Positions 10,336 through 31,309 of a stretch of 33,030 bases of DNA are shown here, piece after piece. The notes beneath the pieces are model-generated. The model ran no database searches, was not told the origin of the DNA, and saw only the letters and a program-made list of their open reading frames with translations. Position 1 is the stretch's first letter. Every line of letters starts with the position of its first letter. Source of the stretch: an uncultured bacterium (lineage in GTDB: Bacteria; UBP6; UBA1177; JAKLFG01); NCBI GenBank assembly GCA_937871295.1, contig CALMRE010000255.1:1-33030 (forward strand). Reading direction: 5' to 3'. The position numbers and the translations under genes are program-made.

Positions 10336-11577
10336 ATGGTCACCGTACGCCCGTTCAAAGCGTTCCGTCCCCCCAAGTCGCTGGTCGAGGAGATGGCCGC
10401 GCTTCCCTACGATGTCATCAACACCGACGAGGCCGCCGCGCTCGCCAAGGGTAAGCCGCGCTCGTTCTTCCACATCACGCGGGCCGAGATCGATCTGCCG
10501 CGCGAGATGGACATCCACGACGACAAGGTCTACGCGCAGGGGCGCGCCGCGCTCGACCGCTTTATAAGGGAAGGGGCGCTGGTGCAGGACAAGGAGCCGC
10601 TTTTCTACATCTACGCGCAGAAGATGGGCGATCATGTCCAGACCGGCATCGTCGGCTGCGTATCGGCCGACGAATACAACGCCGATCTTATCAAGAAGCA
10701 CGAACTGACCCGCAAGGACAAAGAGGACGACCGCACCCGCCATGTGGTGACGCAGAATGCGAACGCCGAGCCGGTGTTCCTGACCTACCGCGCCCGCAAG
10801 GAACTCGACGAGATGATCTTCGGCTACACCGGGAAGACCACCCCCGAATACGATTTCATCGCCGATGACGGCATCCGCCACACCCTCTGGGTCGTCCGCG
10901 ACAAGGGGCTCAACGAAAAGATCGCGACGGCCTTCACGGGGATCGACGCGCTCTATGTGGCCGACGGCCATCACCGCAGCGCATCGGCGGCCCGCGCACA
11001 GGTCGAGAAGCGGAAACACGATGCGAACCCGTCGCCGGATAAGGAGTACAACTTCTTCCTCGCCGTCATCTTCCCGCACGACCAGCTCCGCATCATGGAC
11101 TACAACCGGCTCGTGAAGGACCTCAACGGCAACACGAAGGAGCAGTTCCTCGCCAAGGTGGGCGAGAAGTTCACCGTGACGGCCGGGACGCAGGCGGCTC
11201 CGGCGGCGATGCATGCCTTCGGGATGTACCTCGACGGGAAGTGGCATCAGATAACGGCGAAAGAGGGTTCATTCGACGCGAAGGACCCGATCAACTCGCT
11301 CGATGTCGCCATCCTGCAGAATAATCTCCTCGGCCCGATACTCGGCATCAATGACCCGCGCACCGACAAGCGGATCGACTTCGTGGGCGGCATTCGCGGG
11401 CTCAAAGAACTGGAGAAGCGGGTGAATTCGGGGGAGATGAAAGTCGCCTTCTCGATGTACCCGACGACGCTCGATCAGCTCATCAATGTCGCCGATGCCG
11501 GCAAGATCATGCCGCCGAAATCGACCTGGTTCGAACCGAAACTCCGCAGCGGCCTCTTCGTCCACCTGCTGGACTAA
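10336..11577 (+). CDS. DUF1015 family protein
   Basis: A cytoplasmic protein of about 413 residues belonging to the conserved but poorly characterised DUF1015 family. Family traits seen: the opening RPFKAFRP, LPYDVINTDEA, the KKHELTRKDKEDDR block (about 121-133), and VADGHHRSASA (208-218). The DGHHR segment resembles the nucleotide-binding loop of ParB/sulfiredoxin-fold proteins such as the serine kinase SerK; that comparison is mine and untested. The ATG at 10336 is preferred over the GTG at 10330 because GAGGAG lies 5 bases before it. It has its own consensus promoter. No serine-biosynthesis gene is adjacent, so context gives no substrate clue. Its stop codon overlaps the stop of the convergent lipoprotein gene. 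Confidence 0.88.
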   Translation: MVTVRPFKAFRPPKSLVEEMAALPYDVINTDEAAALAKGKPRSFFHITRAEIDLPREMDIHDDKVYAQGRAALDRFIREGALVQDKEPLFYIYAQKMGDHVQTGIVGCVSADEYNADLIKKHELTRKDKEDDRTRHVVTQNANAEPVFLTYRARKELDEMIFGYTGKTTPEYDFIADDGIRHTLWVVRDKGLNEKIATAFTGIDALYVADGHHRSASAARAQVEKRKHDANPSPDKEYNFFLAVIFPHDQLRIMDYNRLVKDLNGNTKEQFLAKVGEKFTVTAGTQAAPAAMHAFGMYLDGKWHQITAKEGSFDAKDPINSLDVAILQNNLLGPILGINDPRTDKRIDFVGGIRGLKELEKRVNSGEMKVAFSMYPTTLDQLINVADAGKIMPPKSTWFEPKLRSGLFVHLLD

Positions 11578-13685
11578 TCGTTCTCGGTGATGAGGTTGTA
11601 TCTGCGGGCGAACCAGTAGCCCGCAAGGAAATCGAGCCCGGTCTCTCCGCCGGTCCCCTGACTCCCGCGCAGTCCTTTATAGATATTGTCCTTCCAGTAG
11701 TAACTGCTCGCCCCGCGTTCATACAGCGGATAAGCGCGCAGACTCTGCGTTCGGTCGGCGGTAGGCGAGGTCCAGTCGTTCTTCCAGAAGAGTTCCGGTA
11801 TCGGCGACATGCAGAAATCGGGGTCCCACAGCCGGTCGACCGCGTAGATACCGCGCTCCATCGGCACCTCCTGCAGACACTCGATCCCCGAATCGGTATC
11901 GCTCGCCATCTGCGGGACGCCGCGCGCCCCGACGATGAGCTGGAACAGTCCCTGCCGCGCCGGCCGCATCGCGTCGCCCTTTTCGTAGAGCGCCGCCGTC
12001 ATGTCGGCCACGCGGGAACCGTCGCCCACCGATTCGTATGCCTCGCGCAGGATGAAGAACTCCCACACGCCCAGATGGTTCCCCGACCAGTCGCTGATGC
12101 CGTATTCGTTGGTCGGCAGACCGCCCTTCGCGATGTATTCGCTCACATAGGTCCAGATCGTTTCGCACTCGTTCTTGTAGATGGCGCGGTTCACCGCCCA
12201 CGCCGGTTTTCCCTCGCTCATCGCGTAGAGAAGAAGCGAGGTCGCGAGCTGGTTCATCCGCAGGTCTTTGGCTATCTCGCAGTTGTCGTGGAGCCGTTTC
12301 AGGTTGTTCATCATCCGGTCGATGAGTCCCGCCGCGCGCGGATCGGCGCTCTCTTTCAGCACCACCCATGCCCAGTAGTGGCCGATGATGAAACCCTTGA
12401 ACATGTCGTTGTTGCCGCCCTCTTTCCAGTCGATGCCGGCGAACGCGCCGGTCCCTTCGTGGAACTCGGGATCGGCGTCGTCGACATGGAGCCGGACGGT
12501 CCGCGCGAAGGTGGTCACATCGGGGACGATCTCGACGCACTGGAGCGTCCCGTCGAGCGACTTGATCATCCGGTCGAGCGACTCCTGCGTCCCGTCGATG
12601 AGGTATTTCCACGCCATCGTCGCGACATGGACGCCGGTCCAGAGCATGCTGTCGCCGTCCTGATCGTACCGCTGGGTCGCTTCATTCCAGTGCGACATCA
12701 TGCCGAGTTCGTTTATCATCTTCTCCTGCACGAGGTCGGAGAAGAAATCGGCCTTTTCGGCGAGCGTGTAACTGAAGGCGCTGCGGCGCATCTCGGCTTC
12801 GGCGAGCGTCCAGTCGTTCACCGGCCGCTGGATGACCCGCACCGTGTCGGGGTTTTCCCGCAGGAAGAGGCGGTCGGTCGGGTCGGTGACCATGTAGTGG
12901 ACCATCTTCTTAAATTCGTCGCGGTCGGTGTAGGGCTGGACCGCCGGGAGTTCGTGGAACGATGCGTAGGTCTGGTTTATCGTCAGCTTTTCGGCGGCCG
13001 AAGGTTCGGGATTGGCCGGGGTCTCGACCCGCTCGTTGCGCCAGATGGGATCATCACCCGACGGTTCTCGCCATAGCCACACCTCGCTGAAACCCCCTTC
13101 GGTCGCCGGTGAGGCGGGTGTGGTGACCAGATAGTAGCCCCCGCAGGCAGTGGTCTTGAGCAGATCGCCCACGATGCCGCTGAAGGAGAATTCGGGGATC
13201 GACCGGTCGAGGCCGTTCACCGTTTTGACAAAACCGCCCGTGTCGAGTTTGAAATAAGCGGTCATCCCGCGGTAGTCGCTCCCGATCATCCCCTCCATCG
13301 CCTGCGCGGCGCGGTAGCCGTTCCACCGGAGATCGTCGTAGAGGATGGTGCGGATGAGTGCGGCGCTGCCCAAGCCGCTTTCGCGGATCTCGCCGGTGCC
13401 GGAGTAAGTGCCGTGCACATCCTCGCCGCTTATCTCGTAGATCCCCGAAAAAGTGGCGGTGCAGGGGATGTCGACATCGGCGACGATGTCGTCGCCGTCG
13501 GCCGGTTCAAGGAAATCATCGGTCTGATCATCGTCCCTTATGTCCTTTTCGTCCTTTATGTCCTTTTCCCCCTCGTCGTCGGTGAGCAGGGTATCACTGT
13601 CCTTGTCGCCGCCGCCGTTCGAACAGGCGACGAACGCAAAGACGATGAAGAGCAGCGTTACGGGAAATATGCGGGAAAGGAACAT
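11574..13685 (-). CDS. Large lipoprotein with acidic tether; unknown function
   Basis: I do not recognise the main domain. The 703-residue product starts with a signal peptide ending FVAC (Cys21 lipidation), then a ~50-residue D/E/K-rich tether (residues 24-75) holding two tandem copies of a six-residue EKDI(K/R)D unit. A beta-rich segment follows (GTYSGTGEIRESGLGSAAL, about 90-150). The C-terminal ~400 residues look mostly alpha-helical, with repeated W/Y/M-rich helices such as MLWTGVHVATMAWKYLIDG and FIIGHYWAWVVLKES. This layout would suit an alpha/alpha-toroid of the glycosidase type, but no catalytic residues can be assigned. GGAGG lies upstream of the ATG. It follows the aminotransferase gene by 22 bases, so is probably co-transcribed with it. 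An outer-membrane or surface location is likely. Confidence 0.8.
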   Translation of the reverse strand: MFLSRIFPVTLLFIVFAFVACSNGGGDKDSDTLLTDDEGEKDIKDEKDIRDDDQTDDFLEPADGDDIVADVDIPCTATFSGIYEISGEDVHGTYSGTGEIRESGLGSAALIRTILYDDLRWNGYRAAQAMEGMIGSDYRGMTAYFKLDTGGFVKTVNGLDRSIPEFSFSGIVGDLLKTTACGGYYLVTTPASPATEGGFSEVWLWREPSGDDPIWRNERVETPANPEPSAAEKLTINQTYASFHELPAVQPYTDRDEFKKMVHYMVTDPTDRLFLRENPDTVRVIQRPVNDWTLAEAEMRRSAFSYTLAEKADFFSDLVQEKMINELGMMSHWNEATQRYDQDGDSMLWTGVHVATMAWKYLIDGTQESLDRMIKSLDGTLQCVEIVPDVTTFARTVRLHVDDADPEFHEGTGAFAGIDWKEGGNNDMFKGFIIGHYWAWVVLKESADPRAAGLIDRMMNNLKRLHDNCEIAKDLRMNQLATSLLLYAMSEGKPAWAVNRAIYKNECETIWTYVSEYIAKGGLPTNEYGISDWSGNHLGVWEFFILREAYESVGDGSRVADMTAALYEKGDAMRPARQGLFQLIVGARGVPQMASDTDSGIECLQEVPMERGIYAVDRLWDPDFCMSPIPELFWKNDWTSPTADRTQSLRAYPLYERGASSYYWKDNIYKGLRGSQGTGGETGLDFLAGYWFARRYNLITEND
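13533..13568 (-). repeat. Two tandem 18-bp units in the lipoprotein tether
   Basis: Units 13551-13568 and 13533-13550 differ at one base and encode EKDIKD and EKDIRD. They use the ATA codon in an otherwise GC-rich gene. A closely related module occurs in the lipoprotein at 23013-24206. Confidence 0.85.
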
Positions 13686-15072: not shown

Positions 15073-15423
15073 TCAGCCTTTCTTGACGAGGACCGCGCCG
15101 TAGCCGGGCTTAAGGGTGAGAGCCACGAAATTGCGGCCGTCCACCTCGTCGACGGTATAGGTCTTTTGGGGGGCGCCGCTGACATCCTTGAACTTCATCT
15201 TGACCGGACAGAGATCCTTATCGACCGTGATGCGCGCCGTCACTTCGTGCTTGCCGAAGTTGAACGCGAACACCGTTTCGTCGAATCCGGCGATGTTCGA
15301 AAAGGCGAGGAGGCCGGCATCGGAAAGGACCTGCCAGAAGCCGCCGTCAATGGATACCTCGCGATAGTAGCGAGCGCCCTCCAGTTTGGCGAAATCAGAC
15401 AGAAAATCGATCTTTTTAACCAT
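15073..15423 (-). CDS. Small protein resembling the C-terminal beta domain of alpha-amylases
   Basis: A 116-residue protein with no signal peptide. The pattern GLLAFSNIAGFDETVFAFNFG, then alternating strands and a final VALTLKPGYGAVLVKKG, looks like the all-beta domain at the C-terminus of GH13 glycosidases, here standing alone with no barrel domain. That is a resemblance noticed by eye, not a verified match; no catalytic residues are expected in such a domain. The ATG at 15423 is preferred over the ATG at 15480 because it has GGAGA 7 bases upstream and because the promoter's -10 box covers the upstream ATG. It has its own promoter between itself and the Rrf2 gene, so it is a separate unit. 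Confidence 0.72.
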   Translation of the reverse strand: MVKKIDFLSDFAKLEGARYYREVSIDGGFWQVLSDAGLLAFSNIAGFDETVFAFNFGKHEVTARITVDKDLCPVKMKFKDVSGAPQKTYTVDEVDGRNFVALTLKPGYGAVLVKKG

Positions 15424-15478: not shown

Positions 15479-15506
15479 ATTGTAGGAAGAAATCGGGAAA
15501 AGTAAA
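15479..15506 (-). promoter_or_regulatory. Promoter for the small beta-domain protein
   Basis: Minus strand: -35 TTTACT (15501-15506), 16-bp spacer, -10 TACAAT (15479-15484). It lies in the gap after the Rrf2 gene stop and would give a leader of about 50 bases. Confidence 0.6.
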
Positions 15507-15520
15507 TACTTTTTGTGTCC

Positions 15521-15946
15521 CTAGCGGGCGCGAGTCTTAAAATTCTTCATGATATCGGTTACTTTGATCTTGCGTAGCGACTGCTCTATCATGGTGCGGA
15601 CATCGGCGGTAAGGAGGCGGAAGCCGCAATGCTTGTCCTCGCAGATGGGGTGGGCGAACAGACACGCGTTGGTCGGCAGCGGTCCTTCGATGACGGTAAG
15701 CAGGTCGTACGCAGAGATATCCTCCGGTTTCTTTGCCAGCGTGAAGCCACCCTTCGCGCCGCGTTTGGAGTCGATGAAGCCCTCTTTTACCAGCGGTTGA
15801 AGCACCTTGGCGAGATAGGTCTCGGAGACCTGCAGGTCTTCGGCCATCCGTTTGACCGATGCGTTCTTCCCGGCGGCGCCGATGTAGGCCAGCGCGTGGA
15901 TCGCGATGTTGACCCGTTCCGAGATGTTGAGCAGTTTCTGGATCAT
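15521..15946 (-). CDS. Rrf2 family transcription regulator with three cluster-type cysteines
   Basis: A 141-residue winged-helix DNA-binding regulator of the Rrf2 family (IscR, NsrR, CymR relatives). The N-terminal half carries the wHTH, including ISERVNIAIHALAYIG, VKRMAEDLQVSETYLAKVLQPLVKEG and the wing SKRGAKGGFTLAK. Cys95, Cys102 and Cys107 (NACLFAHPICEDKHCGF) match the spacing region that binds an Fe-S cluster in IscR and NsrR, so it probably senses iron-sulfur status, NO or oxidative stress. No isc/suf genes are adjacent. It is the last gene of the Hsp20-led unit, 15 bases after the preceding stop, with a GGGGGG-type ribosome binding site. It could autoregulate that operon; no palindromic operator was recognised. 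Confidence 0.92.
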   Translation of the reverse strand: MIQKLLNISERVNIAIHALAYIGAAGKNASVKRMAEDLQVSETYLAKVLQPLVKEGFIDSKRGAKGGFTLAKKPEDISAYDLLTVIEGPLPTNACLFAHPICEDKHCGFRLLTADVRTMIEQSLRKIKVTDIMKNFKTRAR

Positions 15947-15961
15947 GGTGTCCCCCCGATG

Positions 15962-16195
15962 CTAGACCAGAATATCCTCTGGCGGCAGTTGTCCTTTCTT
16001 TTCGACGAGCTGGAGCCGTACCCGGCCAAGCGCGTCCACCAATTCCGACGGCATTTTTTCGCCGTAGAACGCCTCTATCTTCCGTGACGCCTCTTCGTAT
16101 TTCTCGGCAAGCAGTTTCCATTGGAAGTTGCTTTTGCAGAGCATCAGCTTCACATCGATATCATTGAGCGATTTCATGAAGATACGAAACTCCAT
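15962..16195 (-). CDS. Small protein of unknown function (77 residues)
   Basis: I do not recognise this family. It is short, soluble, charged and probably helical, with a coiled-coil-compatible stretch LLAEKYEEASRKIEAFYG in the middle and a single cysteine near residue 20. Support for it being real: it sits in a continuous same-strand unit, starting 7 bases after the stop of the 530-residue gene and ending 15 bases before the Rrf2 start, with AGAAGG just upstream of the ATG at 16195. An alternative ATG is at 16177. It may work with one of its neighbours, but nothing in the sequence shows which. Confidence 0.65.
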   Translation of the reverse strand: MEFRIFMKSLNDIDVKLMLCKSNFQWKLLAEKYEEASRKIEAFYGEKMPSELVDALGRVRLQLVEKKGQLPPEDILV

Positions 16196-16202
16196 CGCCT
16201 TC

Positions 16203-17795
16203 TTACCCCTTCGTCTTCTTCCAGTTGTCGTAGTTCGGTATGTCGAAGGCCGATATGTAGTACTGCGTCAGATATTCGCGGAACCGTTCCTGATCCGACA
16301 GCACCTTGAAACCGTACTTCTTATCGATGTATTTGACCGCTTCCATGTAGATCTTGTCGAAGTTCGAGCGGCCGACCCGCATCTTGGCCTTGTCGATCTC
16401 CATGGAAACGAAGGTGCGATAGGCTTTCATCAGGCCGTCATCGTCAAGTTCGATGTTGGAGCGGCCGGGGATCATCGGTTCGTCGGGCAGTTCCTCGTAC
16501 ACGGGCTGTTTCTTCTCCGGTTCAGGCGCGGAGACGGAGCGTCCTCTGCCGCCGCGACCCTTCGGGGCCGGGTGTTCGGGCTCCTTCGCTTTTCCTTTTC
16601 CCTTTTCGGGCTCTCTTCCCTTTCCTTTATCCCTGCCTTTCTCCGGTTCTTTGGTTTTCTCTTTTTCCTTTTCCTTGCCCCGGGGCGCCGGTCTCGGCTC
16701 GTTCTTCGCTGCTGCCGGGCGCGGCTCGGTCTTGGGGGCGGGTATCGCGGGAGGTTCTTCCTCCTCCCTCTTTTTCTCTTCGACCCGCTTCATCGTCTTT
16801 TCGTCGAAGGGGAGATAGAGGATATAGGTCGACTGATGCTCCGATATCTTCTCGAGCGATACGAGGCCGCGTTTGTCGAGCCGTTCCAGCAGGCGACCGA
16901 ACTCGGCCGCGTCCAGTTCATCGATCCCGATGCTCTTCTTCAGTCCCGCGCCGACGTAGCCGTAGTTCTTCCGGATGCCGTATGAATAGAGGTAGAGTTT
17001 GACATAGAGCGAATATTCGTTGACCGGGAGCGGCTGGATGAGGCGGGCGAGGTCGTAGGGGAGGATGATGTCGTCGCCGCGCACAACCATCTGGACCTTC
17101 TCGATCGGCTCCTCGTTGAGCGGCAGGATGATCTCCTCCTTCTTGGGCGGAAGATGCCTTATTTCGGGACGCGGCTGCGGTACGGGGACCGGAGCGGCGA
17201 CCGGGGCAGGGGCCGGCTTCACCTCGGGTTTGGGGAGCGGCGGCCGCTCGGCCTGTTTGAACTCGGGCTTCGGCTCGGGCCGGTGTTCGGGGCGCGGTTC
17301 CGGTTTGGGCAACGGCTTCTGGTCGGGGTAGGCGGGGCGATCGTTACGGCTGTCGTATTTGTTGCCGCCGTCGTATTTGTTGCCATTGTCGTACTTATCG
17401 TTCTTTTCGTACCGGTCGCCGCGGTTATCGTACTTGTCGTTACGGTCGTTACGGTTGTCGTACTTGTTGCCATTGTCGTACTTGGGGGCGTTGAATTTGT
17501 CGTTGTACTTGTCGGCGTATTTGTCGAAGCGGTTGTCGTACTTGTCGTTGCGGTCGGGTTTGTTGTTCGGGTCGTATCCCTGCCGTTCCTGCGGCGGGTA
17601 GGGTTTCCGTTCGTCGCGCCGCTCCTGCGGTTTGTCGTGGCGTTGTTCCTGCGGCTTGTGGTCGTGGCGCTCCTGCGGTTTATTGCCGGCGGCCGGCTTG
17701 GCGGCGTTCTCTTCCGCTATCTTTTTCAGGTACTGTACGATCTCTTCCTTCGCCTTTTCCTTGATGGCGTCGGTAATGGCTTTCAAAAGTCCCAT
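16203..17795 (-). CDS. Large low-complexity protein with KYDN repeats and a winged-helix-like middle domain
   Basis: Unrecognised 530-residue cytoplasmic protein (no signal peptide). Order of parts: an amphipathic helix at 1-32 (MGLLKAITDAIKEKAKEEIV and on); a Q/E/R/H/P-rich stretch at 38-75; a repeat zone at 81-153 built on KYDN, NKYDN and RNDKYDN; a proline/charged linker at 154-220; a folded domain at about 240-335 whose helix-helix-wing pattern (YDLARLI, YVKLYLYSYGI, FGRLLERLDKRGLVSLEK) looks like a winged helix of the replication-initiator or DnaD kind; a K/E/G/P-rich segment at 338-425; and a folded helical C-terminus at about 450-525. GAGGT precedes the ATG. It is the third gene of the Hsp20-led unit. 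The asparagine/tyrosine/charge composition is typical of proteins that form condensates, which is inference. Confidence 0.8.
   Translation of the reverse strand: MGLLKAITDAIKEKAKEEIVQYLKKIAEENAAKPAAGNKPQERHDHKPQEQRHDKPQERRDERKPYPPQERQGYDPNNKPDRNDKYDNRFDKYADKYNDKFNAPKYDNGNKYDNRNDRNDKYDNRGDRYEKNDKYDNGNKYDGGNKYDSRNDRPAYPDQKPLPKPEPRPEHRPEPKPEFKQAERPPLPKPEVKPAPAPVAAPVPVPQPRPEIRHLPPKKEEIILPLNEEPIEKVQMVVRGDDIILPYDLARLIQPLPVNEYSLYVKLYLYSYGIRKNYGYVGAGLKKSIGIDELDAAEFGRLLERLDKRGLVSLEKISEHQSTYILYLPFDEKTMKRVEEKKREEEEPPAIPAPKTEPRPAAAKNEPRPAPRGKEKEKEKTKEPEKGRDKGKGREPEKGKGKAKEPEHPAPKGRGGRGRSVSAPEPEKKQPVYEELPDEPMIPGRSNIELDDDGLMKAYRTFVSMEIDKAKMRVGRSNFDKIYMEAVKYIDKKYGFKVLSDQERFREYLTQYYISAFDIPNYDNWKKTKG
17337..17555 (-). 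repeat. In-gene imperfect KYDN/NRNDK repeat zone
   Basis: About 73 codons rich in Lys, Tyr, Asp, Asn and Arg, with KYDN recurring seven times at irregular spacing. The DNA is visibly repetitive (TTGTCGTACTT-like words on the plus strand) and is likely to vary in length by slippage. Confidence 0.85.
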
Positions 17796-17838
17796 GGGTC
17801 ACCTCGTATCGATTCGGGTCAGTTGCTCAAGTCACGGC

Positions 17839-18225
17839 TCACGGAAGGTCCTGTTTGGCCGTGAAGGTCTTGCAGGCGACCACTTCGTCGCCCTTGTATT
17901 TGCAGGCGATGAACCAGTAGTGGAACCGTTTCTCGCCCGCGGTGGAGATATACTGATAGGTCTCGTTCTTTTCGTCCTTCTTGAACTCGGCCAGCTCCAC
18001 CTTCTTGATGAGTTCCTGTTCGTTCTTGCGCAGTTCGAACTTGAAGGGGGCCTGCTTGTTCATCTTGAAGGGAGCGTCTATCGTGATGGTGTAGGCGGTG
18101 CCGGAGCCCTTCTTCTCGAAGGTCACCTTCGCCTCGGCAGGCTTCGCGTCGGCGGCCGGTTTCTTCTCTTCGGCGGCGGTCGCGGTCAGGGAAAGGAGCA
18201 GAAGCGGGAGGAGCAGGTATCTCAT
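17839..18225 (-). CDS. Small secreted protein of unknown function
   Basis: A 128-residue exported protein. MRYLLLPLLLLSLTATAAEE is a clear signal peptide with likely cleavage after TAA or TATA. A short Ala/Lys/Pro linker follows, then a ~95-residue beta-rich domain (VTFEKKGSGTAYTITI, APFKFELRKN) ending with a cysteine pair, FIACKYKGDEVVACKTF. That end vaguely recalls the cysteine-bearing end of DsbD N-domain-like immunoglobulin folds, but the spacing differs and I would not name it. The start overlaps the hsp20 stop (ATGA), so the two are translationally coupled, which is odd since one product is cytoplasmic and the other periplasmic. Confidence 0.8.
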   Translation of the reverse strand: MRYLLLPLLLLSLTATAAEEKKPAADAKPAEAKVTFEKKGSGTAYTITIDAPFKMNKQAPFKFELRKNEQELIKKVELAEFKKDEKNETYQYISTAGEKRFHYWFIACKYKGDEVVACKTFTAKQDLP

Positions 18226-18629
18226 GCGGCCTCGCGGTAGGTCACGGTGATCTTCACCACGCCGTGCTTGTAGGAATGTTCGATGCCGGCGATGTTCTCT
18301 TCGCCCTTTTCGAGCGGCACCAGCTTGAGATAGTCGCCGGTGTTCCGTTCCATGTGGAGGTATTTGCGGTTGTGGCGGCTGGGCACTTTCTTGACGCCGC
18401 GGAAGACGAGCATCCCGTCGCGGCGGGAGATGTCGACGCTCTTTTCTTCCAGCGCCGGGGTCTCGATGAAGATGATCTGCCGTTCGCCGTCGAGGTAGGT
18501 GTCGGTGGCGGGCGAGATGACATTGAGTCCTTTCTCGTCCTCCAGATATTCTTCGCTCATACGGGCGACATAGTTGGCGATGACCCGCTCCATGCTGAGC
18601 CGCAGGTCGATGAGTTTCTCTATCTTCAT
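18222..18629 (-). CDS. Hsp20 / alpha-crystallin family small heat-shock protein
   Basis: A 135-residue small heat-shock protein, an ATP-independent holdase that binds unfolding proteins. The alpha-crystallin domain occupies about residues 40-130: SPATDTYLDGERQIIFIETP, then VDISRRDGMLVFRGVK, ERNTGDYLKLVPL and the end motif HSYKHGVVKITV, the counterpart of the AxxxNGVL signature. The C-terminal I-x-I tail motif that many oligomeric Hsp20s use is not obvious. I chose the ATG at 18629, with GGAGG 11 bases upstream and a consensus promoter just ahead; the open frame extends to 18686 but that part covers the promoter. It leads a five-gene unit ending in an Rrf2 regulator. Confidence 0.85.
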   Translation of the reverse strand: MKIEKLIDLRLSMERVIANYVARMSEEYLEDEKGLNVISPATDTYLDGERQIIFIETPALEEKSVDISRRDGMLVFRGVKKVPSRHNRKYLHMERNTGDYLKLVPLEKGEENIAGIEHSYKHGVVKITVTYREAA

Positions 18630-18657
18630 TCGGGACGGAACCTCCACAACGGAGCCG

Positions 18658-18686
18658 ATTATAAGTAGGGAGCGCGCGAAAGTCAA
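18658..18686 (-). promoter_or_regulatory. Strong promoter for the hsp20-led five-gene unit
   Basis: Minus strand: -35 TTGACT (18681-18686), 17-bp spacer, -10 TATAAT (18658-18663), close to consensus. The predicted leader is about 20 bases. The -35 box lies only 11 bases past the wecB stop. No CIRCE or sigma32-like element was seen. Confidence 0.82.
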
Positions 18687-18697
18687 AAGAAATTAGA

Positions 18698-19771
18698 CTA
18701 AAAGGTCTGAATAGAAAGTATATCCACTATCCGTTCGGCGGCGTGGCCGTCGCCGTAGGGGTTCGTTGCTTTCGCGAAGGAGGCGTAGTAGGCGGGGTCG
18801 GTGAGGAGCCGTTTGGCCGCCGCGACGATGTCGGCCTGTTCGGTACCGGCGAGTATGAGCGTCCCGGCGTCGACCCCTTCGCTCCGTTCGGTCTCACGCC
18901 GCATGACGATCACCGGAATGCCAAAGGCGGGCGCCTCCTCCTGAATACCGCCCGAATCGGTGAGGACCAGTTCGGATGAGGTCATCTCAGTGATGAAGGC
19001 GATATAGTCGAGCGGCTCAATGAGGCGGACATTAATGATATTTGAAAGGAGCGCGTTGACGGTGGTGCGGACATTCGGGTTGGGGTGGACCGGGTAGACG
19101 AACTCACGGTCGGGGAAGGTGCGCGCCAGTTCCGCTATCGCGCCGCATATCTGGCGCATCGGCTCGCCGAAATTCTCGCGTCGGTGGGCGGTGATGAGCA
19201 CCTGTTTCTTCTTTTTGGTCTGTATCTTCGCCGCGACGAGTTTCACCGTGTCGATGACGGTGTTGCCGGTGACGAAGATGGCCGCCGGGTTGATCCCTTC
19301 GCGCAGGAGGTTGTCACGGTTGAGCGCCGTCGGGGCGAAGTGGTAGGCGGCGATGCGGGCGGTGAGCGACCGGTTCATCTCTTCGGGGAACGGCGAGTAG
19401 CGGTCGTTGCTGCGCAGTCCCGCCTCGACATGGCCGACCGGTATCTTTTTATAGAAAGCGGCAAGCGACGAGGCGAAGGTGGTGGAGGTGTCGCCGTGGA
19501 CGACGACGATATCGGGCTTGACGCTGTCGAGCGCTGCGTCGAGCCGCGTGAGGATAGAGCTGGTGATATGGGCGATCGACTGGTCGGGCTTCATGATGTC
19601 GAGGTCGGTGTCGGGGTGGACGGCGAAGAAGTCGAACAGCGGCCGGCAGAGGTCGCGGTGCTGTCCGGTGTAGAGAAAATGGGTGTCGACGCCCCGTTTT
19701 TTCAGTTCGCGGATGACCGGCACGATCTTGATGAATTCGGGCCGGGTGCCGACCGAGACGAGGACCTTCAT
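18698..19771 (-). CDS. wecB: UDP-N-acetylglucosamine 2-epimerase (non-hydrolysing)
   Basis: Interconverts UDP-GlcNAc and UDP-ManNAc in the cytoplasm, supplying ManNAc(A) for surface polysaccharides. 357 residues, typical of bacterial WecB/MnaA. Seen in order: VGTRPEFIKIVPVI, the VVVHGDTSTTFASSL block, GHVEAGLRSNDRYSPFPEEMNR, VTGNTVIDTV, ITAHRRENFGEPM and LTDSGGIQEEAPAFGIPV, covering the uridine and phosphate-binding residues of the GT-B-like fold. TAGGAGG lies 6 bases before the ATG. It follows ttcA by 9 bases, an unusual pairing. No other glycan genes are nearby, so which polymer it serves cannot be read from context. Confidence 0.96.
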   Translation of the reverse strand: MKVLVSVGTRPEFIKIVPVIRELKKRGVDTHFLYTGQHRDLCRPLFDFFAVHPDTDLDIMKPDQSIAHITSSILTRLDAALDSVKPDIVVVHGDTSTTFASSLAAFYKKIPVGHVEAGLRSNDRYSPFPEEMNRSLTARIAAYHFAPTALNRDNLLREGINPAAIFVTGNTVIDTVKLVAAKIQTKKKKQVLITAHRRENFGEPMRQICGAIAELARTFPDREFVYPVHPNPNVRTTVNALLSNIINVRLIEPLDYIAFITEMTSSELVLTDSGGIQEEAPAFGIPVIVMRRETERSEGVDAGTLILAGTEQADIVAAAKRLLTDPAYYASFAKATNPYGDGHAAERIVDILSIQTF

Positions 19772-20679: not shown

Positions 20680-21081
20680 ATGTCCAAACCGGTCATACTC
20701 GTTACCGCCGCGGTCATGATGCGACGCGGCAGGATACTCATAGCGCGTCGCTGCGATCACGGTCACATCAACGGCAAATGGGAATTCCCCGGCGGCAAAC
20801 TGGAGCCGGGAGAGACGCCCGAGCAGTGCCTTGCCCGCGAACTGTTCGAAGAGTTCGGCATCCGGGCGACGGTCGGCCCGCTCATCGCCGAGAACTGCCA
20901 CGACTACGGCGAGAAGGCGATACGGCTCTTGGTCTTCCGCATCACGCGGATACGGGGCGACTTCGTGCCGGTGGAACATGACCGCATCGAATGGGTGCGG
21001 CCCGCAGAACTGCTCTCCTATGATCTCGCCCCGGCCGACATACCGGTTGCCCAGATATTATCCGGAAAGAAAAAAGACTAA
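20680..21081 (+). CDS. Nudix hydrolase, MutT-like
   Basis: A 133-residue Nudix pyrophosphohydrolase, probably cleaning oxidised or unwanted nucleoside triphosphates. The Nudix box is complete (GX5EX7REUXEEXGU): G-KLEPG-E, then the REL-FEEFG part, at about residues 39-61. The preceding INGKWEFPGG closely resembles the substrate-site approach of MutT (8-oxo-dGTPase) and the related CTP pyrophosphohydrolase; which of these it is cannot be settled by eye. The ATG at 20680 is preceded by GGAGG. Its TAA stop overlaps the stop of the convergent ankyrin gene. Confidence 0.92.
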   Translation: MSKPVILVTAAVMMRRGRILIARRCDHGHINGKWEFPGGKLEPGETPEQCLARELFEEFGIRATVGPLIAENCHDYGEKAIRLLVFRITRIRGDFVPVEHDRIEWVRPAELLSYDLAPADIPVAQILSGKKKD

Positions 21082-21674
21082 TCTAACGCGCCACCGGCCG
21101 ACAAGAGGTCCATCAACTCTTGGTTCTTGAGTTCGCGCGCTATCTTCATGGCGGTGACGCCGCTTTTCGACTTCAGGTTGACATCGGCCCCCTGTTCAAT
21201 GAGTAGTTCGACCACCTTCGCATGACCGAACTTCACCGCGAACATGAGGGGCGTGACGCCGTTCGCATTCTGGGCGTCGACCGCGGTACCGCTCTCGATG
21301 AGACGATTGACCTCGGCATGGTCGCCGTCGTGCGCCGCCTGAAAAAGTTTTTTCTCGTCGGCCGCCCGATCGAAGATGGCCGCCTTGAGGGCGACCTGCC
21401 CGGAGCGGTCGGAAACTCCCCCCTCATCCTTGACCTTTTCTGTTTTTTTCCGTTCCTCCTCTTCCGCTTTCCTGCGGTCCTCCTCCTCCTTCTGTTTTTT
21501 GATCTCGGCGGCGCGGATGCCGGCCGTTTCGTCCAGCGCGTAGAGTGTCGCGAACAACGCGAGCGTGAGGAATGAGGCGAGCGCGCCGCCGATGCCCCAT
21601 TTCTGTCCCATGAGAGTGACGATGATGAAGAGCGCCAGCGCGCCCCATTTGGTGTAGCGTCCGTATTGCGTCAC
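21078..21674 (-). CDS. Membrane-anchored ankyrin-repeat protein
   Basis: A 198-residue protein starting at a GTG (21674) with GGAGG 8 bases upstream; the open frame continues upstream to 21881 but that part overlaps the divergent radical SAM gene and its promoter. The N-terminus has two hydrophobic segments (WGALALFIIVTLMG and GGALASFLTLALFATLYAL), then a highly charged coiled-coil-like stretch (IKKQKEEEDRRKAEEEERKK), then three ankyrin-like units, the best being NANGVTPLMFAVKFGHAKVVELLIEQGADVN split over 33 residues. The ankyrin part probably faces the cytoplasm and binds a protein partner that cannot be inferred. The last repeat is a short cap. Confidence 0.85.
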   Translation of the reverse strand: MTQYGRYTKWGALALFIIVTLMGQKWGIGGALASFLTLALFATLYALDETAGIRAAEIKKQKEEEDRRKAEEEERKKTEKVKDEGGVSDRSGQVALKAAIFDRAADEKKLFQAAHDGDHAEVNRLIESGTAVDAQNANGVTPLMFAVKFGHAKVVELLIEQGADVNLKSKSGVTAMKIARELKNQELMDLLSAGGALD

Positions 21675-21703
21675 GGTGTTTCCCTCCGCAAAAAAGCAGG
21701 CGA

Positions 21704-21732
21704 AGTGTACGACAGAGCCGCCGCAAAAGCAA
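21704..21732 (-). promoter_or_regulatory. Probable promoter for the membrane ankyrin gene
   Basis: Minus strand: -35 TTGCTT (21727-21732), 17-bp spacer, -10 TACACT (21704-21709). Divergent from the radical SAM promoter, -35 boxes 16 bp apart. Confidence 0.6.
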
Positions 21733-21748
21733 GTCGGCGGGCGAAAAG

Positions 21749-21777
21749 TGGACTTCGGGCCGCGCGTACGGCATAGT
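21749..21777 (+). promoter_or_regulatory. Possible promoter for the radical SAM gene
   Basis: -35 TGGACT (21749-21754), 17-bp spacer, -10 CATAGT (21772-21777). Four of six matches in each box, so only moderate support. Confidence 0.4.
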
Positions 21778-21795
21778 AACGGCGATGGAGGAGAG

Positions 21796-23028
21796 ATGAC
21801 CACCGCCCCCCGATTCATATTCCGCCTGACCGGCGGCAACCGTACCGCCATCCGCGCACTCGTCGCATCGCTGGAGGCCATCGGCGTTCAGCGCGGCCCG
21901 GTGCGGGTGATCCGCGATCTGCACGAACTGGACGACCTTTCGCCCGACGCGGCGCCGCTTTTCCTCTTTTCCTGCATGACCTGCCATTTCGAGAAAAGCC
22001 TTCGCGAGATGCAGTGGCTCCGGGGCCGGTTCCCCGCCGCCCGTTTCATCATCGGCGGGCCGCATCCCTCGGCGCGGCCGCGCGAAGTGCTGGAGCGGGG
22101 CTTCGACCTTGCCGCGGTGGGCGAAGGGGAGGAGACGATCCGCGAGATATGGCTTCGGACGGAGGCGGGAAAACCGCTCGACGATGTCGCGGGGCTCTAC
22201 CGGCTTGCGAAGGGCGAACTCATCGGCACGCCGGCTTCTCCGGTCGATATCGAACGGTTCCCGATGATGGCCCAGCGGTTCAAGCTGCACGGTCCCATCG
22301 AGATAACGCGCGGTTGCGCCAGCGTCTGCCGCTACTGTCAGACCTCGTTCTTCCACGGCGTAAAGGAGCGGTGGCGGAGCCGCGAGGCGATACTGACGGC
22401 GGTCGAAGAACTGGCGGCGATCGATTTCAAATACTACCGGTTCCTCTCGCCCAACGCGCTGGGCTGGCACAATCCGACCAACACCACGCCCGAGCCGCTC
22501 CACGCGCTCCTTGCCGATATCCGGCGGATCGTCGGGCCGCACCGGAAAGTGATCTTCGGCACCTTCCCGGCCGAGATACGGCCCGAATTCGCCACGCGAG
22601 AGAGCATGGCGGTCATCAAAAAGTACTGCGACAACCCCATCATCGTGGTCGGCGGGCAGTCGGGAAGCGACCGGATGCTCGAACACATGCACCGCGGTCA
22701 TACCGTCGCCGATATCCACCGCGCCGTCGACAATACCAAGGCGGCGGGGCTCAATCCCATCGTCGATCTCATATTCGGACTGCCGGGGGAAACGCCCGAC
22801 GATCTCGCCGAGACGGTGACGCTCATGGATCGGCTGCTGGCGGGAGGCGCTCACATCCGGGGACATATCTTCATGCCGCTTCCCGGTACCCCGTGGGAGG
22901 ATGAAGCGCCCGGAAAAGTGCCGGAAGAGCTGGCGCAGCGCTTTAAGCTGATGTCGTCGAAAGGTGCCCTGTCGGGCTGTTGGGAAGAACAACTGGAACA
23001 AGAGGATACCCGATGTTACGCAAATTGA
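21796..23028 (+). CDS. B12-binding-domain radical SAM protein, substrate unknown
   Basis: A 410-residue radical SAM enzyme. The N-terminal ~150 residues follow the cobalamin-binding-domain layout of this class (FIIGGPHPSARP, DLAAVGEGEETI), and the SAM/[4Fe-4S] motif is TRGCASVCRYCQTSFFHG (Cys174, Cys178, Cys181, spacing CxxxCxxC). Later GGQSGSDRMLEHMHRGH and PIVDLIFGLPGETPDD are the usual SAM-barrel motifs. A CMTC pair at 60-63 is an extra feature. It resembles the MJ_1487-type family of B12-binding/radical SAM proteins, whose chemistry is unknown to me; methylation of a poorly reactive carbon is one possibility. The ATG at 21796 has GGAGGAGAG directly upstream. The last 16 bases overlap the next gene. 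Confidence 0.88.
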   Translation: MTTAPRFIFRLTGGNRTAIRALVASLEAIGVQRGPVRVIRDLHELDDLSPDAAPLFLFSCMTCHFEKSLREMQWLRGRFPAARFIIGGPHPSARPREVLERGFDLAAVGEGEETIREIWLRTEAGKPLDDVAGLYRLAKGELIGTPASPVDIERFPMMAQRFKLHGPIEITRGCASVCRYCQTSFFHGVKERWRSREAILTAVEELAAIDFKYYRFLSPNALGWHNPTNTTPEPLHALLADIRRIVGPHRKVIFGTFPAEIRPEFATRESMAVIKKYCDNPIIVVGGQSGSDRMLEHMHRGHTVADIHRAVDNTKAAGLNPIVDLIFGLPGETPDDLAETVTLMDRLLAGGAHIRGHIFMPLPGTPWEDEAPGKVPEELAQRFKLMSSKGALSGCWEEQLEQEDTRCYAN

Positions 23029-29482: not shown

Positions 29483-30185
29483 ACAGCGGGTTCTGTTTCA
29501 CTATCAGCGCGAGAAGTTCGGAGAATTCGGGGGCGAGTGCGCCGCGCTCCGGCAGGTCAGGGAGGAAGAGGGTCGTCGGCTCCTTGGTGTCGAACGGCGT
29601 ATATTTAAGGATAAGGTGTTCAAGGTAGAATTCGGCCGGGTCGCGCTGTTCGGTGTCGTAGAGCGGATCGCCCGCCAGCGGCAACCCCATCCCGGCGCAC
29701 ATCACCCGTATCTGATGAAAGCGGCCGGTGAGGAGCCGGATGAGGAGATGCCAGCGCTCTGTGCTCTGCGGCACCGGCGCCGCGCCGAGTATCTCCAGCC
29801 GTGACGATTTCCCGCCGGCGTGGACGAGTTTCGACCGACCCTTCACCTCTTTCAGATAGGCCGTGTGCTCCCCGATGAACTCCGCCGGACTTTTTCCCGC
29901 CGGAGCGGCGACGCGGGCGAGGTAGTATTTCTCCCAGCGGCCCGCCTTTATCTGTTCGTTGTGGAAGGCGATGGCACCCTGCGTGAGGCAGACAAGGAGG
30001 ATGCCGCGGGTGATGCGGTCGAGCCGGTGGGGGAGTTTCGGGTCGGCACCGGGGTGGCGCTTCGCGACGAGCGCCTTTGCCGAGACACCGTCAAGGTCGC
30101 CCTTGAATTCGCTCGACAGCCCCGCCGGTTTGAAGAGGGCCAGTTCGTTATTTGTTTCGGTGAGAATGATGAGCGGGTCGGGCAT
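29475..30185 (-). CDS. RluA-family pseudouridine synthase
   Basis: A 236-residue RNA pseudouridine synthase. The catalytic aspartate lies in PHRLDRITRGILLV, the family's HRLDxxTSG motif with Arg in place of the usual Ser. GRFHQIRVMCAGMGLPLAGDPLYD and LEHLILKYTPFD are the other RluA/RluC blocks. It has no N-terminal S4 domain, so it resembles the RluA/TruC subgroup, but the target uridine (23S rRNA or tRNA) cannot be told. The start overlaps the stop of the upstream ankyrin gene (TGATG), so it is the last gene of the unit that runs leftwards from the right edge. Confidence 0.92.
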   Translation of the reverse strand: MPDPLIILTETNNELALFKPAGLSSEFKGDLDGVSAKALVAKRHPGADPKLPHRLDRITRGILLVCLTQGAIAFHNEQIKAGRWEKYYLARVAAPAGKSPAEFIGEHTAYLKEVKGRSKLVHAGGKSSRLEILGAAPVPQSTERWHLLIRLLTGRFHQIRVMCAGMGLPLAGDPLYDTEQRDPAEFYLEHLILKYTPFDTKEPTTLFLPDLPERGALAPEFSELLALIVKQNPLFS

Positions 30186-31309
30186 CAGCGGCTGGCCGCT
30201 TCGGCCTGTTTGAGCATCTTCTCGATATTGGCGAACCCCTTTTCCTTGGCTATCTGCGACGCCATCTTTCCCTCGAACTGCCGCACCGTCGGATCGGCGC
30301 CCAGCCCGAGCAGGCGGTCGACGAGATCGGCGTTGTTCCTGTCGACGGCGTAGAACAGGGCCGTCTTGCCGTAGGAATCGGTCTGGTTGACCTTGAAGGG
30401 TTTCCCCATGAGGAGATTGACCAGCATCGGCCGATCCTCTTCGATGGCCATCATGAGCGCCGTGCGCCCCTCTTTATATTTGAGATTGAAGTCGCCGTCG
30501 CCGCCGCTGCGGAGGATCAGTTCGGCCGCGCCGAGTTCCCCTTTATGGAAGGCGAACATCAGCAGCGTGCTCCCTTTGAAGTATTTCCCGTTCGGGTCCA
30601 CTTTGGCGTCGAGAAGCGCCTTGGTGACCGCGAGGAAGCCCTTTTCGACCGCATAGACGATGATCGGCTTGCCGTCCGACATCTTCATGTCGATGGGCGC
30701 CCCCTTGGCGATGAGCGACTTTACCGCGTTGCCGTCGCCGCGCTGTACCGCGTCCATGAGTTCCACCGGCAGGCGGTCGAATTTGGAGAGCAGGTCGATC
30801 GCCTCCTTACGGCGCGAATCCATGGCGTAGTCGAGCGCGGTCTTATCCTCCTGACTCTTCGCGGTGCGGTTCGCCCCCTTGTCGAGGAGTATCTTCACCA
30901 TCTTCTCGTTGCCCGCCTCGGCGGCGTACATGAGCGGCGTTTTCCCTTTCATGTCGGTCTCGTTGATAAGCGAGCCCTTCTGCAGAAGCACCTCGGCGAG
31001 CGTCTGATTCTTCATGGCGATGGCGTGCATGAAGGCGGTCTTGCCGTCGGGGCCCTGCATGCCGAGGTTGAGTTCCGGCTTCATGAGGAAGAGGCGGATG
31101 ATCCCCATCTGGCCGCCGCTGACCGCGGTGATGAAGAGGGGCCAGCCGTCCTCGTCGACGGCGTTGACATCGGCGCCGGCGTCTATCGCCTCGGCCACGC
31201 CGACCAGTTTGAGATCGGCCACCGCTTCGAACAGTCGGCGCGTGGCGTCGGCGTTGGCGGCCGAGAGCGATGTCGAGAACAACAGGATGGCGATAAGGAT
31301 ACGGATCAT
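30185..31309 (-). CDS. Secreted ankyrin-repeat protein
   Basis: A 374-residue protein with an N-terminal signal peptide (MIRILIAILLFSTSLSAANA), so it is exported. The rest is about ten ankyrin repeats of ~33 residues; clear ones are MKGKTPLMYAAEAGNEKMVKILLDKGANR split around residue 130, EGRTALMMAIEEDRPMLVNLLMG, and SYGKTALFYAVDRNNADLVDRLLGLGADP, with a helical cap at the end. Ankyrin arrays bind proteins; a periplasmic example often guards or inhibits an enzyme, but no partner can be named. A GGAG site precedes the ATG, 25 bases after the stop of the VWA gene. It may be co-transcribed with both neighbours. Confidence 0.92.
   Translation of the reverse strand: MIRILIAILLFSTSLSAANADATRRLFEAVADLKLVGVAEAIDAGADVNAVDEDGWPLFITAVSGGQMGIIRLFLMKPELNLGMQGPDGKTAFMHAIAMKNQTLAEVLLQKGSLINETDMKGKTPLMYAAEAGNEKMVKILLDKGANRTAKSQEDKTALDYAMDSRRKEAIDLLSKFDRLPVELMDAVQRGDGNAVKSLIAKGAPIDMKMSDGKPIIVYAVEKGFLAVTKALLDAKVDPNGKYFKGSTLLMFAFHKGELGAAELILRSGGDGDFNLKYKEGRTALMMAIEEDRPMLVNLLMGKPFKVNQTDSYGKTALFYAVDRNNADLVDRLLGLGADPTVRQFEGKMASQIAKEKGFANIEKMLKQAEAASR

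Follow-up and report, generated by a model that had tools for sequence, protein, structure and literature searches.

SEC128, P530 and P77: a conserved single-copy gene trio of one uncultured bacterial order

Five consecutive genes on one strand of an uncultured bacterial genome (3.4 Mb, 99% complete) raise the question of whether they make up one system or whether only some of them belong together, and of what those members might do. The genes lie in a window of 33,030 nucleotides, by which we mean the whole stretch of DNA that was analyzed. A preliminary description had proposed a five-gene unit with spacings of -4, 43, 7 and 15 bases; strand, order and all four spacings were reproduced, and the features are the following.

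18658 to 18686, minus strand: sigma-70-type promoter, TTGACT-17-TATAAT, with a consensus score of 11/12.
18222 to 18629, minus strand: HSP20, an alpha-crystallin-domain protein of 135 residues; an optional member.
17839 to 18225, minus strand: SEC128, an exported Ig-like domain with the invariant Cys pair C108/C118; core member.
16203 to 17795, minus strand: P530, with an amphipathic N-terminal helix, a disordered linker, a winged helix, a further linker and a near-invariant C-terminal domain; core member.
16203 to 16445, minus strand: the C-terminal 80 residues of P530, its ultra-conserved part.
15962 to 16195, minus strand: P77, a small protein, helical by inspection, always immediately downstream of P530; core member.
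15521 to 15946, minus strand: Rrf2, a regulator of the Rrf2 family with three conserved Cys; accessory, found in family f1 only.
15479 to 15506, minus strand: separate promoter of the next gene, TTTACT-16-TACAAT, which marks the operon end.

The five genes of the window are a real operon. The promoter in front of them, described beforehand as near-consensus, proved to be the best among three promoter-like sites in 8 kb, and its score was reached by none of 300 shuffles of the upstream 100 bases. HSP20 starts at the ATG at 18629, which is the start site of all orthologs, and not at the TTG at 18686. No promoter-like site was found on the minus strand inside the five-gene block, and the operon end was placed after Rrf2 because the next downstream gene has its own promoter, which has counterparts in L034 and L036 at the equivalent position and reads TTGACA...TACAAT in a related genus. 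Across the order, the operon promoter was kept in 19 of 21 loci (TTGACT/A, a spacer of 16-18, and a -10 element of the TATAAT or TAAAAT type), at 23-38 bases upstream of the first gene, be it HSP20 or SEC128; in most genomes of genus g4, the same promoter directly precedes SEC128. As far as the sequence tells, this conserved near-consensus promoter fits steady expression over dedicated stress control.

In the wider surroundings, a 116-residue protein without a family match (window 15073-15423, minus strand) is encoded in the interval from Rrf2 to a class-III aminotransferase gene; it has its own promoter and is conserved at this position in two other f1 genomes, L034 and L036. The aminotransferase gene is adjoined across the same genus by the gene of a 703-residue protein (window 11574-13685, minus strand), for which no Pfam match was obtained at E up to 1e-5 and which is 80% identical in L034. 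Two separate ankyrin-repeat proteins are encoded within 10 kb (window 21078-21881 and 30185-31309, both minus strand).

The recurrence of the block was followed by profile searches in 386 genomes for the C-terminal domain of P530 and in 290 each for P77 and SEC128, the order being sampled with 25 genomes, which cover part of its known species. P530 homologs are present in the genus, family and order of the window; the P530 C-terminal domain and P77 occur in one copy each, adjacent to one another, in 22 of the 25 order genomes, and SEC128 was detected by profile search in 22 of 25. Outside the order, no credible match to P530, P77 or SEC128 appeared (386, 290 and 290 genomes searched, respectively). 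Wherever the contig permits, the genes follow the order SEC128-P530-P77 with short gaps. In three families they were never seen apart, even where their outer neighbors change; the genes beyond the block also vary between genomes. The trio is a conserved single-copy unit of one uncultured bacterial order. HSP20 lies directly before it in families f1 and f3 and in the f2 genera g6 and g8 (nine loci), and is absent next to it in genus g4; Rrf2 is found in the operon only in f1. The preliminary description had named P530 homologs that occur without these neighbors as the sign against a five-gene system, and such homologs were found, without Rrf2 outside f1 and without Hsp20 in g4. The proposed recurrence of the block therefore holds for SEC128, P530 and P77 and fails for Hsp20 and Rrf2 as constant members; a five-gene system was rejected because Rrf2 is restricted to f1 and Hsp20 is an optional accessory member.

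Two of the three order genomes without P530 and P77 are incomplete (G003, 65%; G021, 72%), and G003 retains HSP20-SEC128 at a contig end. The third, G018, nominally 92% complete, a value to be used with caution, is without the operon and equally without ribosomal protein S2 and the tRNA-Val/Asp pair. For these reasons the absences of the trio look like assembly gaps, and its loss in G018 was rejected. Matches to P530 in G018 were attributed to chance (one of E 9e-4 in the linker; one of E 0.10 covering 19 residues of an interrupted reading frame), as was a match of G142 to the P530 C-terminal profile (E 0.004, 44 residues), where the full-length profile finds nothing. The tRNA-Val(TAC)/tRNA-Asp(GTC) pair, under its own TTGAC-type promoter, directly follows P77 in 17 of 17 f2 loci (L037, L039-L054) and is located elsewhere in f1 and f3 genomes. 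Since the P530 C-terminal domain was unmatched in plasmids, phages and viral contigs, we see no sign of a mobile element at this locus; the PADLOC defence models gave no match for the core proteins. The trio is apparently inherited vertically.

Both flanking proteins are of the families to which they had been assigned. For Hsp20, PF00011 was matched at 2.6e-5 (24.7 bits against a cut-off of 20.8), and the window genome carries two further Hsp20 genes elsewhere that score better than the operon copy. In the g4 genomes G005, G008, G013 and G019, Pfam Hsp20 gave no match, in a search that also missed the divergent Hsp20 of the window, and relatives of these four carry two or three Hsp20; a genus-wide loss in g4 is possible, the pattern being suggestive only. 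The Rrf2 assignment was borne out by PF02082 (2.6e-29) and TIGR00738 (93.5 bits against a cut-off of 73.3), and its three cysteines (C95, C102 and C107) were kept in 4 of 4 orthologs, the Fe-S cluster itself being putative. No conserved operator for Rrf2 was found near the operon promoter: the candidate near 18640-18700 was rejected, the sole inverted repeat there, AGACCTTTTAGTCT, overlapping the epimerase gene upstream at its 3' end and not being conserved in g2. Both proteins would serve as accessories, Hsp20 in protein quality control and Rrf2 in redox or Fe-S control.

The question thus narrows to the trio. P530 orthologs share an N-terminal helix (MGLxKxIxxAVK), a linker, the winged helix, another linker and the C-terminal domain. 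Between the window and the other families, the C-terminal 80 residues are 74-79% identical, against 68-71% for ribosomal protein S2 and 51-57% for P77 in the same comparison, by which measure the P530 C-terminal domain is better conserved than S2. P77 matched no known family, Pfam searches on the core proteins returned weak and inconsistent matches, all below every cut-off, and nothing informative on them came from PHROGs, NCBIfam, PADLOC or sequence searches of the PDB. Because the three genes lie side by side, single-copy and order-wide, belong to no known family and include a part more conserved than a ribosomal protein, the trio probably does an undescribed housekeeping job. A relative-less domain more conserved than S2, with two obligate partners that are themselves family-less, points to a core function missed by current annotation. 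Tentatively, and well short of conviction, we favor a constitutive, order-specific housekeeping operon in which P530 and P77 would form a membrane adaptor on an invariant machine, with SEC128 on the periplasmic side.

The winged helix that had been suspected in P530 was confirmed by the AlphaFold2 model of the compact ortholog L051:8454-9461, with a pLDDT of about 95; in the same model the C-terminal domain reached about 50-70, and no fold match was found for this low-confidence part. The closest PDB fold to the winged helix is the RepA-type N-terminal domain 4pql (Foldseek probability 0.98, E 0.03), the other top matches being the RepA-type N-terminal domains 4pt7 and 5kbj. Among viral structures, replisome organizers and replication initiators rank with the nearest folds; taken singly, no match named here is significant. 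These matches would speak for a replication or chromosome-organization factor of the DnaD, lambda O or RepA kind, whose winged helix would sit on DNA and whose C-terminal domain would engage a helicase or its loader, P77 being a helper. So would the identical arrangement of winged helix, linker and helical C-terminus and the single-copy, highly conserved state of P530. We nevertheless consider such a factor rather unlikely, as no PDB match has an E below 0.001, the best BFVD matches have an rmsd near 20 over disordered parts, and the exported partner SEC128 is left unexplained. Moreover, at E up to 0.001 the order genomes contained no match to PF06970 (RepA_N) or PF07261 (DnaB_2); the former also gave nothing on P530, and the latter did detect the controls from B. 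subtilis and L. lactis.

A further point against a replication factor is the P530 helix at the recognition position, which is acidic in f2 (net -2 to -5) and near neutral in f1 and f3. The segment preceding it is a basic patch (GLKKS/TLKRR), which leaves DNA binding by P530 possible. The acidic helix in f2 argues for a docking role, and in the housekeeping adaptor that we favor, the replication-initiator-type winged helix would serve mainly for docking and less for reading DNA sequence. The N-terminal helix of P530 is amphipathic, with an inconsistent 18-residue lipid-binding score (0.40 in the window, 1.18 in L051), and would contact the inner membrane, and the C-terminal domain with its obligate partner P77 would bind the invariant machine, which may be the chromosome/replisome or the transcription machinery. 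Among these, replication is the leading specific idea for the P530-P77 machine, on the basis of weak fold similarity.

SEC128 (128 residues) consists of a signal peptide and a single domain, modeled as an Ig-like sandwich with a pLDDT of 83.6 overall and over 90 past the signal peptide. In line with the earlier claim of an exported protein with a cysteine pair, the two cysteines are invariant among orthologs and located on facing strands in the model. In the housekeeping adaptor, SEC128 would work from the periplasmic side at the same envelope site as P530, via its Ig-like domain and a disulfide-forming Cys pair; operon membership alone is no proof of a physical link between the exported SEC128 and the cytosolic P530. 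A redox-capable exported domain that shares an operon with a cytosolic winged-helix protein could also belong to an envelope-stress regulator, in which a membrane-tethered, DNA-binding P530 would sense the periplasm via SEC128 with Hsp20 as the stress effector, and many copies of the locus carry Hsp20. However, there is no transmembrane link, the promoter is near-consensus and not stress-type, Hsp20 does not adjoin the trio in g4 and the recognition helix is acidic, which makes such a regulator quite improbable in our judgment.

We likewise give little credence to the absence of any joint mechanism, that is, to unrelated housekeeping genes standing in an old cluster under one strong promoter. 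The export of SEC128 beside a P530 and a P77 that look cytosolic would agree with it, as would outer members that come and go and variable genes beyond the block, but the strict co-occurrence of the trio, unseparated in three families despite changing outer neighbors, speaks against it.

The KYDN low-complexity repeat reported for P530 is real, with 63.7% D/N/K/Y/R over 135 residues of the N-terminal segment, and is confined to the genus of the window, g1; elsewhere the linker is an R/D/N/Q-rich segment in the sister genus g2 and an E/K/P-rich one of 36-66 residues in f2, so that the conserved part of this showy low-complexity protein is not its low-complexity part. The preliminary description had proposed a stress- or redox-controlled condensate that the disordered P530 would form, with Hsp20 as its buffer and Rrf2 as its regulator. 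The 64% D/N/K/Y/R segment in g1 and the operon shared with Hsp20 and Rrf2 in f1 would speak for it, but with a genus-specific repeat, only short E/K/P linkers in the f2 orthologs, a dispensable Hsp20 and an f1-only Rrf2, this was rejected as the ancestral core function and is very improbable.

For the housekeeping adaptor itself, a bolder form can be conceived, namely an order-specific complex straddling the inner membrane, in which P530-P77 would tether a replisome- or nucleoid-like machine opposite SEC128. We hold this form to be doubtful; if true, the lineage would handle a basic process in a way of its own, using families described nowhere else. The trio offers a small, testable three-gene target.

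Set against known systems, neither any of the three core families nor the set as a whole could be assigned to something already described. This holds in a narrow sense, and deeper searching might yet turn up a known fold or a distant relative. Among the accessory proteins, the window HSP20 shares the alpha-crystallin domain of small heat-shock proteins and, unlike typical Hsp20, is divergent, with its own conserved N-terminal segment and without the C-terminal IxI extension (no IxI/V motif was found, 8 of 8 aligned orthologs ending right after the last strand). The operon Rrf2 shares the full-length Rrf2 domain and three conserved cysteines with IscR, NsrR, CymR and RirA, whereas it falls below every cut-off of the NCBIfam equivalogs (IscR, CymR, NsrR, RirA and others) and has the Cys spacing C-x6-C-x4-C. 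For SEC128, the top fold matches include nDsbD structures, at a weak E of about 0.06 that is not significant alone. In the published topology of nDsbD, C103 and C109 lie on opposite strands of a hairpin (PMC7347389), and SEC128 is predicted to be similar as an exported Ig-like sandwich with a Cys pair on facing strands. It differs in its spacing (C-x9-C against C-x5-C) and, unlike DsbD, is without a transmembrane or thioredoxin domain and without a Pfam match. The best structural matches of P530 are the RepA_N plasmid initiators, DnaD and the phage replisome organizers, with which it seems to have in common the order of winged helix, flexible linker and helical C-terminal domain; unlike RepA_N and DnaD proteins, it is without a PF06970 or PF07261 match, has a near-invariant C-terminal domain without detectable relatives, carries an extra N-terminal amphipathic helix and is encoded in a chromosomal operon together with an exported protein.
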